Virus record (IMG/VR): IMGVR_UViG_3300042391_000196
Span: 1-27,678 of that record
Length of the DNA: 27,678 bases
Source of the DNA: a virus
Direction: 5' to 3' (one strand)
Shown here: in pieces, positions 2,012 to 25,270 of the stretch
Layout of the letters: each line of letters starts with the position of its first letter
How positions within the stretch are numbered: position 1 is the stretch's first letter
The notes under the pieces: generated by a model
What the model was told of the DNA's origin: nothing
What the model saw: the letters and a program-made list of their open reading frames with translations, nothing else
Databases searched by the model: none
Made by a program: the position numbers and the translations under genes

Positions 2012-2290
2012 CTAGGCTAAAAGTGGACAAGCTAATCTGAAAAAGCTAAGTTCTTTTTCTTGCTCAAATCCGATTCTAGTAGTGAATACTAGACTGTTAT
2101 CTATTAGATCTAAATACTGACCTATATAGTATCTACTGTTAAGATTGTGATAAATCCATTGATCTATATGCGTAAGCATTACTGGATTATATTTAGGAAT
2201 AATTGTATAGTAAAAGTGATGCGCTGGAAAAGAGACCTTCCTCAATTCCAGCGCATTAATCGGATTAACTTTACCGTTTTTTAACGCCAT
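2012..2290 (-). CDS. Hypothetical protein (92 aa) coupled to VWA gene
   Basis: No family is recognised. The ATG at 2290 shares one base with the TAA of the VWA/metallopeptidase gene (TAATG), so it is probably translated by re-initiation after that gene. The protein is rich in aromatic residues, including Y-Y and H-H-F-Y-Y near residues 23-28 and several Tyr/Phe pairs later, and has no transmembrane segment or recognisable motif. Position and coupling suggest it belongs to the CobS/VWA unit, but this is inference only. Confidence 0.75.
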   Translation of the reverse strand: MALKNGKVNPINALELRKVSFPAHHFYYTIIPKYNPVMLTHIDQWIYHNLNSRYYIGQYLDLIDNSLVFTTRIGFEQEKELSFFRLACPLLA

Positions 2291-3495
2291 TACTGAACTT
2301 CTTCATCGTAGTATGCGTGAGCACCCCATGGCGGAACAATACTAGTAGTACCATGAATAATAAACACTGTGTCACAGTAGTGTTCATCACCCCACGAATC
2401 CCAAGGATAACCGTCTGTAAACATGATAAACTTTTTAGGGTTAATATCGTGATTCTTCATGTATTCCCAATTAGCCATAAAGTCGGTGCCACCACCGCCC
2501 ATAGGCTGATACTCGGTAATATCATTACCACCGTAGCCATCAAAGTCTTGTTCGTTATAAACCTTAGTATCAAAACACCACACTTTGATATTGTAGTCTT
2601 TGTACTCGTCCATAATGCCTTTGATCTCTGTCAAGAAGTCTTTGGCTTGTGCATCACTAATGGATCCAGACATATCAATGGCAATGGAGATATCAATAGT
2701 TTCGTCAAAGTTCATACCTGGCAAGATTGCACCAGTATGCCAACCTTTACGGCTAGGACGACTAAACGTATAGTCGTTACGAATAGTACTTTGAATTTGC
2801 TGACGCAGAATCTGACGCCAGTTCATCTTAGGCTCAGTCAGCTCACGAATCATACGTTGAATCTCAGCAGGAGTATTGCCGGCACCTGCAGCTTGCGCAG
2901 CTGAAATTGTAGCTTCTCGTACTTCATCACGGATTTTGCGCAATTCATCTTTCGAGTATTGCGGCTTATTACCTTGGCCTGGCTGACTACCGTTATTCCC
3001 AGTGCCGTCACCTTCCCAATCGATATGCTCGTCTAATAGTTGACCCAACGCAGACAGACTTTCTTCGTCCATCTTTTCATAAATCTCGTCATACACTTGT
3101 TCGGCACTTTTTCCGTAATGCTTGGGATCATGGAAAATCTTAATATCTTTTGGAGAGTCACCAATACGATCCCTAACCAACTGTCCGTTCACACAGTAGT
3201 CGATAGCCGCATTCCAAATGCCGCGATTTCTATTTTCAGTACGAGCAATGTGATCAAACACATTATGCAAGATCTCGTGTGCTACAACGAATTCAACTTC
3301 TTTGGTGCTGAGTTTTTCAAAAAACGGACGACTGTAGAACAAGTTACGGCCATCTGTTGCAGCTGTTTGACACCAATCGCTAGCATCTACAATTTTAAGG
3401 CGTGTAGCCATATTGCCAAAAAATGGATGGCGTAGTAGCAACCCAATTCGTGCTACAATAATTTTGTCTATAACTGGATCTAAATGTTGCGACAT
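2290..3495 (-). CDS. Putative metallopeptidase-like protein with VWA domain (DUF2201 type), partner of MoxR/CobS ATPase
   Basis: The 401-residue protein has two recognisable parts. The N-terminal domain carries a zinc-peptidase HExxH motif, H73-E74-I-L-H77, inside a hydrophobic helix, as in the DUF2201 N-terminal 'putative metallopeptidase' family. A Gly/Asn/Gln linker around residues 165-180 follows, then a helical region, then a C-terminal von Willebrand A-like domain from about residue 265. That domain has a MIDAS site: D274-M-S276-G-S278, a Thr-Asp at 337-338, and T-D-G at 360-362. VWA proteins of this type work with MoxR-family AAA ATPases as chaperone or insertase pairs, and the ATPase gene lies immediately upstream. 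CobT of cobaltochelatase has the same architecture of VWA plus ATPase partner. A perfect sigma70-type promoter precedes the gene, and AGGAG lies before the ATG. Confidence 0.88.
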   Translation of the reverse strand: MSQHLDPVIDKIIVARIGLLLRHPFFGNMATRLKIVDASDWCQTAATDGRNLFYSRPFFEKLSTKEVEFVVAHEILHNVFDHIARTENRNRGIWNAAIDYCVNGQLVRDRIGDSPKDIKIFHDPKHYGKSAEQVYDEIYEKMDEESLSALGQLLDEHIDWEGDGTGNNGSQPGQGNKPQYSKDELRKIRDEVREATISAAQAAGAGNTPAEIQRMIRELTEPKMNWRQILRQQIQSTIRNDYTFSRPSRKGWHTGAILPGMNFDETIDISIAIDMSGSISDAQAKDFLTEIKGIMDEYKDYNIKVWCFDTKVYNEQDFDGYGGNDITEYQPMGGGGTDFMANWEYMKNHDINPKKFIMFTDGYPWDSWGDEHYCDTVFIIHGTTSIVPPWGAHAYYDEEVQ

Positions 3496-3527
3496 AATCT
3501 GCTCCTAAATAATTACTCTATGTATAT

Positions 3528-3556
3528 ATTATAACACCGCCCGTAGGCGGTGTCAA
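3528..3556 (-). promoter_or_regulatory. Perfect sigma70 consensus promoter with palindromic spacer
   Basis: Read on the minus strand, TTGACA (3556-3551) is followed by exactly 17 bases and then TATAAT (3533-3528). Both hexamers are perfect. It lies about 33 bases upstream of the VWA gene start, in the 77-base gap after the CobS-like gene. The spacer is almost wholly occupied by a perfect inverted repeat (separate entry). The sequence after the -10 (ATATACATAGA) resembles that after the promoter at 4714-4742, which suggests a shared early-promoter class. Confidence 0.85.
3534..3553. repeat. Perfect 8-bp inverted repeat filling the promoter spacer
   Basis: ACACCGCC and GGCGGTGT are exact complements separated by the 4-base loop TACG. 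The repeat spans the last three bases of the -35 and the entire spacer. It could be a protein operator, or an RNA hairpin in transcripts reading through from the CobS-like gene. The downstream bases (TATAATATATA) are not a good U-tract, so an intrinsic terminator is only a second choice. The GC-rich repeat stands out in AT-rich surroundings. Confidence 0.85.
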
Positions 3557-3572
3557 ATAGCACAGTACCAAA

Positions 3573-4664
3573 TTAACGCTTTTCGGTAGCTGCTGCAATG
3601 TACTTACCAAATTTAGCATGGAAGTCATCGAAACATTTGATCTCATCTGGATCCAACGGTAATTGGTATTGAGTCAATGCAAGTTTAGTGCCCATAACAA
3701 CTAATTCAGTTTCAAAATTGTCCATAATAAACTGGAAGAAGTTATTAACTTGATCATTCCAATTTTTAACGTTTTTGTCACATGCATCTTTGAGTTCGTA
3801 GCACAGGCTAACAGTTAAAGAGTACATGGCACTGATTTCTTTAGTGTCCATTTTCTTAACCTTGCCAAGCAAGATGTCAGTAGGGTTAGGCAACTTAGAC
3901 GCAACTTTTCGGTGTGCCATAAACTTAATAGCAAGGCCTTCACCGACAGCACCCGACACCAAATCTGTCAAAGTGTTTTCGTCTTCGTCGTCGTCAAACA
4001 ACAGTTCAGAAACAAATGCCCAGCTACGCGGAGTAGCAAATGCTTTTGAACCAGACTTAGGATCAAAGTCGTACAGGTCTTTCTTAGAGAAAGTAAGGAA
4101 ACCAACTACGTCTTTGTGGATACGATTTTCAGTAGCCCAAGTAAAGTAGTCATCCCAGTCAACACGCATTTCCATGTGAACGAAACGGTTTGCCAACGGA
4201 GCAGGCATGCGATAAGTAACACCCTTGTCAGCTTCACGGTTACCAGCGGCAACAATCAGCACGTTATCTGGCAACTTGTAAGTACCAACTCGACGGTTCA
4301 AAACCAACTGATAAGCTGCCGCTTGAACAGCAGGAGCTGCAGAGTTCATTTCATCCATGAATAGGATAATTTGTTTATGTTGGCTAGCCATGTACTCGTC
4401 TGGCAATTCCATTGGCGGAGCCCAAGCCATTTTGCCCGCATTAGCATCAAAGTAAGGAATACCTTTAATATCAGTAGGTTCCCAAAGACTCAAGCGAATG
4501 TCAATAACATGAGCCTCTAGTTCTTCGCCCAATTGTTTAACAATATCCGACTTACCAATTCCTGGAGGACCCCACAAGAAGATTGGACGCTTTGCTTTAA
4601 AAGCACGACGAATAGATTTTTTAGCTGCTTTAGGGCCTACTGTACGGGAAACAATTTCGCTCAT
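3573..4664 (-). CDS. cobS: MoxR/CobS-like AAA+ ATPase
   Basis: This 363-residue AAA+ ATPase has Walker A G32-P-P-G-I-G-K38-S39, Walker B L-F-M-D104-E105, a sensor-1 A-A-G-N-R at roughly 143-147, and an N-R-F arginine-finger region at about 163. It closely resembles the proteins annotated 'CobS' in T4-like cyanophages, where the name comes from the ATPase subunit of aerobic cobaltochelatase (cobalt insertion in B12 synthesis). The fold is the MoxR family, so a general role as a chaperone ATPase acting on a VWA partner is equally possible. The HExxH/VWA gene directly downstream supports a two-component ATPase-VWA unit. A perfect consensus promoter and an AGGAG ribosome site precede it. The actual substrate is unknown. 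Confidence 0.92.
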   Translation of the reverse strand: MSEIVSRTVGPKAAKKSIRRAFKAKRPIFLWGPPGIGKSDIVKQLGEELEAHVIDIRLSLWEPTDIKGIPYFDANAGKMAWAPPMELPDEYMASQHKQIILFMDEMNSAAPAVQAAAYQLVLNRRVGTYKLPDNVLIVAAGNREADKGVTYRMPAPLANRFVHMEMRVDWDDYFTWATENRIHKDVVGFLTFSKKDLYDFDPKSGSKAFATPRSWAFVSELLFDDDEDENTLTDLVSGAVGEGLAIKFMAHRKVASKLPNPTDILLGKVKKMDTKEISAMYSLTVSLCYELKDACDKNVKNWNDQVNNFFQFIMDNFETELVVMGTKLALTQYQLPLDPDEIKCFDDFHAKFGKYIAAATEKR

Positions 4665-4713: not shown

Positions 4714-4742
4714 ATTATACGATAGATACGTCACTATGTCAA
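4714..4742 (-). promoter_or_regulatory. Perfect sigma70 consensus promoter for the CobS-like gene
   Basis: On the minus strand, TTGACA (4742-4737), a 17-base spacer and TATAAT (4719-4714) are all perfect. The box lies about 50 bases before the ATG at 4664. The downstream ACATACATAGACAG resembles the post -10 sequence of the VWA and folE promoters. The -35 starts just upstream of the stop of the 4750-5157 gene. Confidence 0.88.
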
Positions 4743-23447: not shown

Positions 23448-23469
23448 CTAAGTAAGTCGGATTACTTAG
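23448..23469. repeat. Perfect 8-bp inverted repeat over the stop codon
   Basis: CTAAGTAA (23448-23455), a 6-base loop, and TTACTTAG (23462-23469) are exact complements. The repeat covers the TAA stop of the 602-residue gene and lies just upstream of the terminator stem in the transcript. It may be part of a tandem-hairpin end or protect the mRNA's 3' end. Confidence 0.7.
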
Positions 23470-25270
23470 TTGGCATACCACCCGGTACACCTTTTGCAAT
23501 CGGGGCAGCGCCTGGTGCTGGTGCCGCTTGAACTTTGCCTGCAATCTTTTGTACTCGCTGTGCTAGTGCTGTTAGACGTTTTTGCACATCTGCTGGTAAC
23601 GCAGCCGCAGCTACTGGATCTTTTGCATACTTGTCAATAACAGCCATATGCTTGTCAAACTCTGCCTTATCAGCGGGATCCATTTGAAGAGATTGAGCAA
23701 CAGCTGGATCTGCAAATATTTTCTTGATTCCTTGATATGCACCGTACGCACCAGCGCCAATAGCACCTGCGATTGCAACAGCTTTACCGGCACCTGGAAG
23801 TCTCATGGCAACATTTTTTGCAAATTGTCCAATTCTAGAACCCACTCCTGGTTTAGCAGGAGTTACATCTCTGTACGGAGTGTAAGGCAATCCACCGCCG
23901 CCTGCTGGTCTTGATGGCACCATAGCACCACCGCCCGGACCAGGCAACGCAAGTGGTGCCTCAGTTAATACAAGCTTCATGAATTCCATTTGCTCAACTT
24001 CACTGAGCAACTTGATGTTAGTCATTACAAATGATCGTAATTCTGATTCGGTCATAAAGTCAAGGTCACTTATGTGTGTAACACTTTCAACTTTATACTT
24101 AGCTAAGATCTGTTCCATAGCACCTAATGATGCAACTAGATCACTTTGTGATTTAATCTGTGCGCCTCTAGCTAATAGTTGTTCAAACTCAGGAGTAATT
24201 TTTCCTGTCTCCGGTTTCCCAGCCATCTTTTCAAATGCTTTAATACCTGCAATAGTTGCTGGACCCATTTTACCATCTGCTCCAGTACTACCGACATTAA
24301 TACCTAATGCAATCAGTTGCTTTTGAATATTCATTACTTTGTTACCGGCCGCTGCTGGTGTAGCAGCTGGTGTAGCAGCTGGTGTAGCTGCCGGTGTTGC
24401 ACCTGACTGAGTTGTTGCACCTGGAACTTCGCCAGTATCGCCTCCGCCTGGCGCCGTTTGTGTTCCGGCAGCTAATCGAGCATCTGTTGGATTGGCTGCT
24501 GCAGGTGTTGCACCTGGAACTTCGCCAGTATCGCCTCCGCCTGGCGCCGTTTGTGTTCCGGCAGCTAATCGAGCATCTGTTGGATTGGCTGCTGCAGGTG
24601 TTGCTGTTTGTGATTGTGCTAACTTATCAAGAGCTGCTTGTGCATTTTGTAGTGCTTTTGCTATTTCTGGATCGTCTTGCATATCATTAAGCTCTGCCAT
24701 AATTTTTTTAATTTCAGCAACTTCGTTTTGAAATTTTCCTTGTTGTACACCCATTGGTCCAGTAACTGTTGGTCCAGTACCTAATGTTACTTTTTCTGCA
24801 ATTCCGTTTTCTTTAAGATTATAACTAAAACTTTCAACAATGTTACGTGCAATGTTTGATTTAAATACAAATGATTCAGCTGTTGGTGCTGCTGAAATTT
24901 TAGCTACTAGAGCATTGAGTTGTTTTAACTTTTCTTGTTTAAATTTAAAACTACCTGCATCGCCTTGATTAACTGCTGCCGCTGCCGCTTGATCTGTTGT
25001 TGCCTGGCCGCCTGTAGTTAATCTTGATACCCAATCAGGCTTACCTGTTGGCTTAGGCATAGTGCCGTCCCACTGTTCAATTGGGGGTAGTGGTGGAGGT
25101 AAACCCATTCTACCGCGTACAATCTCATCAGTACCGGTATACTTAGCTGCTTTTTCTAGTCGAGCCATTAGTTCTTGTGCCTTAGCATAGGCAGCAGGAT
25201 CACCAGCTTCCATCAAATTTTGTTTGGATTCTATGCGATCCATCTTAGCTATCAATGCTTTTAAGTCCAT
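23462..25270 (-). CDS. Probable virion structural protein with peptidoglycan-binding domain (602 aa)
   Basis: The start, M-D-L-K-A-L-I-A-K-M-D-R-I-E-S-K, resembles that of the neighbouring structural gene. Residues about 224-290 hold two identical 31-residue units (93-bp exact DNA repeat) rich in Pro, Ala, Thr and Gly, then short P-A-A-T repeats to about 305. Residues 310-368 (Q-K-Q-L-I-A-L-G-I, then G-A-D-G-K-M-G-P-A-T) match a PG-binding type 1 domain, which binds cell-wall peptidoglycan. A Gly/Ala-rich hydrophobic segment (about 495-517) may be a membrane-active helix. The end is Pro/Ala-rich. It could be a tail or capsid-associated protein that contacts the cell wall. A late promoter box precedes it. 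Confidence 0.7.
   Translation of the reverse strand: MDLKALIAKMDRIESKQNLMEAGDPAAYAKAQELMARLEKAAKYTGTDEIVRGRMGLPPPLPPIEQWDGTMPKPTGKPDWVSRLTTGGQATTDQAAAAAVNQGDAGSFKFKQEKLKQLNALVAKISAAPTAESFVFKSNIARNIVESFSYNLKENGIAEKVTLGTGPTVTGPMGVQQGKFQNEVAEIKKIMAELNDMQDDPEIAKALQNAQAALDKLAQSQTATPAAANPTDARLAAGTQTAPGGGDTGEVPGATPAAANPTDARLAAGTQTAPGGGDTGEVPGATTQSGATPAATPAATPAATPAAAGNKVMNIQKQLIALGINVGSTGADGKMGPATIAGIKAFEKMAGKPETGKITPEFEQLLARGAQIKSQSDLVASLGAMEQILAKYKVESVTHISDLDFMTESELRSFVMTNIKLLSEVEQMEFMKLVLTEAPLALPGPGGGAMVPSRPAGGGGLPYTPYRDVTPAKPGVGSRIGQFAKNVAMRLPGAGKAVAIAGAIGAGAYGAYQGIKKIFADPAVAQSLQMDPADKAEFDKHMAVIDKYAKDPVAAAALPADVQKRLTALAQRVQKIAGKVQAAPAPGAAPIAKGVPGGMPTK
24414..24599 (-). repeat. Exact 93-bp tandem direct repeat (two copies)
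   Basis: Units 24414-24506 and 24507-24599 are identical in all bases read, with a few more matching bases after the second. The repeat is in frame (31 codons) inside the 602-residue gene and encodes a P-T-D-A-R-L-A-A-G-T-Q-T-A-P-G-G-G-D-T-G unit. No drift is seen, so the duplication is recent or an assembly effect. Confidence 0.95.

Follow-up and report, generated by a model that had tools for sequence, protein, structure and literature searches.

Why should the spacer of a perfect promoter also be able to pair with itself, and is that pairing read as DNA or as RNA? The question is raised by 29 bp (minus strand, 3556 to 3528) between two genes in the 27,678-nt stretch of IMG/VR virus record IMGVR_UViG_3300042391_000196 analysed here (hereafter, the window). 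The first-pass annotation of this locus had offered two readings of the repeat, i.e., an operator at which a repressor competes with RNA polymerase or an RNA hairpin in read-through transcripts, and had added that it may place the downstream gene under separate control.

Results

The minus strand from 3556 to 3528 reads TTGACA CCGCCTACGGGCGGTGT TATAAT, that is, a -35 hexamer (3551..3556), a 17-nt spacer (3534..3550) and a -10 hexamer (3528..3533) that match the sigma-70-type consensus at 12/12 positions, exactly as annotated, with a TG preceding the -10. The inverted repeat, ACACCGCC-TACG-GGCGGTGT (3553-3534, minus strand), has 8 perfect pairs, 6/8 of them G-C, and a 4-nt loop, and its composition from the spacer plus half of the -35 is also as had been described. 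Since it takes in the ACA of the -35 (3551-3553) along with the whole 17-nt spacer, the spacer by itself is no perfect palindrome; the heading given to the locus is therefore right about the perfect promoter and not about a perfectly palindromic 17-bp spacer. The ACA doubles as the base of the 5' arm of the hairpin, and TGT (3534..3536) serves both as extended -10 (TGn) and as the base of the 3' arm. In sense RNA the 8-bp hairpin (3534..3553) carries a UNCG-type tetraloop and has a predicted energy of -13.8 kcal/mol (ViennaRNA), and in the RNA of the upstream transcript the -10 hexamer would become a weak A/U-rich tract past the hairpin.

The flanking genes, both on the minus strand and assigned by Pfam, are a CobS/MoxR-type AAA ATPase upstream (3573..4664), whose stop codon lies ~16 bp ahead of the -35, and a VWA-like putative metallopeptidase downstream (DUF2201_N and DUF2201; 2290..3495), with a Shine-Dalgarno-like AGGAG at 3502..3506 on the same strand. 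For comparison, the promoter of the CobS gene itself (TTGACA-17-TATAAT, 4742-4714, minus strand) also matches at 12/12 positions and is, as the first-pass annotation had pointed out, without a palindrome. Given the composition of the window and the same hexamers, a stem of >=8 bp arises in 0.12%, and one of >=7 bp in 0.58%, of random 17-nt spacers. A search for further exact copies of the repeat in the window's own record returned none, so that it is unique there, and no Rfam family matched anywhere in the window. The promoters at 4714-4742 and 3528-3556 (minus strand) are followed by similar start regions, TATAATACATACATAGA and TATAATATATACATAGA, and a similar start region, TATAATATACATA, is found in distant relatives; it is possibly an initial-transcribed motif of this phage group.

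The element was next compared across relatives, i.e., 80 IMG/VR loci recovered by an ATPase search (83-100% identity), the junction being readable in 79. Both the promoter and the palindrome are kept at the CobS/VWA junction in 79/79 readable relatives, and the position of the element is syntenic in every relative read; that is, loss of the palindrome from relatives that keep the promoter, the outcome that the first-pass annotation had named as refuting its reading, was not seen in any of these junctions. The relatives hold 25 distinct 29-mers, and all but one of these (24/25) are paired at 8/8 positions. The -35 hexamer TTGACA is invariant across the 25 distinct elements, and so are the outer three pairs (ACA/TGT), because they are also part of the -35 and the extended -10. 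Changes on both sides occur in four of the five inner pairs, the innermost pair being C-G in 24/25, and the inner arms among close relatives include CCGCC, GGACC, GGGTC, GGGAC, GGGCC, GGAGC, CCTCC and CCACC. Of 200 stem cells, 99.5% are paired and 39 are double-change cells, and the covariation score reaches 0.493 vs. 0.131 +/- 0.025 for shuffled controls (0/500 reach the observed value) and 0.02-0.17 with slid partners. What is conserved is the pairing of the stem and not its sequence. The loops at this locus are nearly all YNNG, with TTCG, TACG and TGCG the commonest and one TTTA, and other loops found were TAAG, TTAG, TTTG and CTAG; the hairpin energy ranges from -11 to -15 kcal/mol across all distinct elements.

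Exceptions to perfect pairing are informative about the nucleic acid and the strand involved. Over all loci, there were 731 distinct TTGACA-17-TATA(A/C)T sequences among the matches listed (scans with unconstrained stems added many promoters, and several scans required a given loop or TGT), and their pairing peaks at 3/8, with a separate group at 7/8 (19 sequences) and 8/8 (48 sequences). Among the same matches listed, 19 elements have one non-Watson-Crick pair, which is G-U/U-G on the sense strand in 12 and the mirror A-C/C-A in 2, an excess corresponding to a binomial p = 7e-6 against equal types and a 12:2 sign test p = 0.013, with kinship ignored in both cases; the G-U exceptions are mostly in elements located at genes other than CobS/VWA. 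Such a bias is expected of a sense-strand RNA hairpin and has no reason under a DNA dyad or cruciform, which suggests that the pairing is probably maintained as RNA, in transcripts that read out of CobS. Because hairpin energy is equal on both strands in nearly all elements and hence fails to separate them, the strand evidence rests on the G-U exceptions and the tail; by the latter, the terminator score (d'Aubenton-Carafa-type, our own implementation) has a median d of -3.8 for the sense vs. -21.8 for the antisense orientation.

In absolute terms, this score is borderline: only 32% of the distinct elements are >0, and three canonical terminators from the group reach 9-30. The stem is followed by a broken tract, UAUAAU (UAUAAUAUAUA), and nT after the stem is ~2.9 vs. 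3.7-4.8 in the same three terminators. Since the tract is poor and the score borderline, the sequence supports no more than partial termination or capping of the 3' end.

More distant relatives, with a ~50% identical ATPase, were reached by searching with the PA5oct phage ATPase, which gave 17 more loci. At the corresponding junction in seven of these (L603, L609-L614), there is a separate GC-rich hairpin, mostly a canonical terminator with a T-tract (e.g., AGCCCCCGGAAACGGGGGCTTTTTATTT), then a gap, then a separate TTGACA/TTGACT-16/17-TATAATATACA promoter, and then a VWA homologue sharing 43-48% identity. The distant relatives therefore have a terminator and a promoter in series, and the clade of the window would have packed both into 29 bp. 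Elsewhere in the window, a canonical terminator at 23441-23420 (minus strand) is likewise followed closely, in series, by an 11/12 promoter (23405-23377, minus strand), and a 602-aa ORF (23462-25270, minus strand) contains a near-perfect internal protein repeat, ATPAAANPTDARLAAGTQTAPGGGDTGEVPGA.

The distant loci also carry a further feature. Just past the CobS-like ATPase gene in L603-L614 and L616-L648 (e.g., L610, ~3627-3664) lies a conserved 24-nt stretch, CCTACCTATGTTACTCCCTACCTA, which a covarying stem encloses in its loop and which a canonical terminator follows. It has 33 exact matches in viral contigs, no match in Rfam and no convincing match in named phages. In L603 and L609-L614, the ribosome sites of the ATPase gene, the VWA gene or both contain AGGTAGG, to which the CCTACCT of this stretch is exactly complementary, and, judged from sequence, this stem-loop is a candidate regulatory RNA.

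Palindromic promoters were also found ahead of genes whose N-termini resemble a gp44-type clamp loader, a gp32-like protein, small lipoproteins and others, which indicates a recurrent device rather than a property of the VWA gene. Eight contigs of 65-133 kb have 1-2 copies each, one always at CobS/VWA. At the DNA level, no record of a named phage covers 80% of the CobS/VWA region; PA5oct has the ATPase with a different gene downstream, and KVP40, nt-1, T4 and PA5oct have no palindromic spacer of this kind under the strict pattern. The all-GC version gave 0 matches in bacterial genomes and a looser pattern gave 16, only two of them with 7/8 pairs, a scarcity that points to an element mainly of phages. 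Two bacterial MAG contigs (L348 and L356; Oscillospiraceae and Eubacteriales) show the same promoter pattern with 7/8 pairs, the exception in L356 being G-U; these could be prophage elements or represent use by the host.

In the genomes of relatives, the two signals are also fused in a second register (AAAGGGTCTTGACAGACCCTTTTTTTACCTTTATAAT-type): the loop and 3' arm of an unmistakable terminator contain the TTGACA, and the U-tract forms the promoter spacer. The corresponding hairpin is present in 36/115 distinct TTGACA-N5-T5-N7-TATAAT sites of viral contigs, a set selected for T5 in the spacer. Elements of this type occur in the genomes behind L022, L076 and L051 (G004, G005 and G006) and also in L093, L264 and L415-L524. 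To judge from these sites, terminator-promoter fusion appears to be a habit of these phages.

Discussion

We favor, as the probable explanation of these patterns, that the 29 bp constitute a composite regulatory element, a putative terminator-type hairpin fused with the promoter of the VWA gene. Under this model, the element would be a sigma-70-type promoter, of the kind used by the host, for the VWA gene, with the terminator-type hairpin of the CobS transcript folded into it. In RNA made by a polymerase exiting CobS, the spacer would fold into an 8-bp GC-rich hairpin whose tetraloop is YNNG (mostly UNCG), with only A and U in the stretch behind it, and the hairpin may end, weaken or cap the CobS message. 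The same DNA, acting as -35 and -10, would initiate transcription anew past the hairpin, and the VWA mRNA from the embedded promoter would be without the hairpin because its start falls downstream of it. A polymerase released at the hairpin might then restart at the embedded promoter. Recycling of bacterial RNA polymerase to nearby promoters after intrinsic termination has been documented, and in vitro recycling work suggests that promoter-proximal terminators favour restart (PMC11347151).

Alternatively, the hairpin might be kept as RNA that does not terminate, either capping the 3' end of CobS mRNA that arises elsewhere, as a barrier to exonucleases, or insulating the ribosome site of the VWA gene from RNA reading through from upstream. 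The poor U-tract and the borderline score are consistent with this, as is the fact that UNCG-type hairpins are very stable and known 3' barriers; however, distant relatives have a canonical T-tract terminator at the same junction and other fused elements of these phages have full T-tracts, and we regard this alternative as rather unlikely. A dimeric repressor or activator that binds the palindromic spacer and controls the VWA gene, the operator reading of the first-pass annotation, would account for a dyad that is truly present and lies between the -35 and -10, the classical operator position. Yet no half-site is conserved among close relatives, the compensatory double substitutions in the stem argue against a sequence-specific operator, and a DNA dyad should show no preference for G-U over A-C; hence, the operator is rejected, on covariation and G-U asymmetry, as highly improbable.

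The same two lines of evidence lead us to reject recognition of a hairpin or cruciform in the DNA itself, comparable to the promoters of the N4 virion RNA polymerase, for which we see very little chance. That idea would fit a small GC-rich hairpin exactly at the promoter, and UNCG loops correspond on the opposite strand to C-GNA-G, a stable DNA loop, but the sigma-70-type -35 and -10 are nearly invariant, the loops TAAG, TTAG, TTTG and CTAG are not GNA, and the G-U preference is strand-specific. Finally, a chance palindrome, expected at 0.12% per promoter, is refuted by its presence in 79/79 relatives with compensatory changes, and its probability is negligible. Hence, of the two readings offered earlier, it is the RNA hairpin that gains support, from the covariation, the sense-strand G-U exceptions and the separate terminator and promoter of the distant relatives, and the idea of separate control of the VWA gene holds as far as the conserved perfect promoter goes.

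Among known systems, the fused hairpin and promoter most resemble the PeSLs (promoter-early stem-loops), which T4-type phages carry and for which a composite promoter-terminator nature has been described (Arbiol et al. 2010 and Comeau et al. 2014, as cited in PMC4503421; also PMC3950731). Like these, the window's element packs a stem-loop and a strong early promoter of sigma-70 type into a single short intergenic piece; when we folded the sequences, RB49 and phi1 turned out to contain several TTGACAGGGGATCGGTGATCCCCTATAAT-type sites, with the -35/-10 spacer filled by the stem as it is in the window. In contrast, PeSLs reportedly recur within a genome as a number of near-identical copies located in variable (hyperplastic) regions and are reported to promote recombination or gene shuffling, whereas the window's element is found about once per genome at a fixed junction. 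Further, its stem diverges by compensatory change, extends into the -35 (ACA) and closes in TGT, and its tetraloops are YNNG as opposed to the mostly 3-nt loops of RB49 and phi1. Because of its single copy, fixed junction, diverging stem and YNNG loop, we do not count it among shuffling cassettes. By its sequence it would work like a PeSL, with three new aspects: it keeps to one position, occurs about once per genome and has YNNG loops. It has the look of a compact stop-and-restart signal, a type that had been described before in T4-like phages.

Other comparisons are more partial. Intrinsic terminators with CUUCGG loops (T4) share the GC-rich stem, the UNCG-type loop and the location shortly past a stop codon, but the window's element has no U run and the -10 element comes next. 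Spacer operators (MerR-type or repressor sites) share dyad symmetry between -35 and -10, whereas the element here lacks a conserved half-site, conserves pairing instead and has a 17-bp spacer that is already optimal. The hairpin promoters of the N4 virion RNA polymerase share a small hairpin at a phage promoter, but the window's element keeps canonical -35/-10 hexamers, and its loops are varied and not of the N4 kind.

It is tempting to speculate, although only tentatively, that nested stop-and-restart devices are widespread among phages and come in two or more registers, with bases shared between the terminating hairpin and the promoter; a polymerase that finishes one operon would then stay on the promoter of the next and restart there, which would couple the outputs of the two operons. 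The element described here appears to be a conserved device in which an RNA hairpin and a promoter occupy the same bases and which many environmental phages have maintained through compensatory evolution. A terminator that overlaps its own downstream promoter would be an extreme case of terminator-promoter proximity and could allow restart to be tested directly, and the element may also provide a sequence signature for locating operon boundaries in uncultivated phages.
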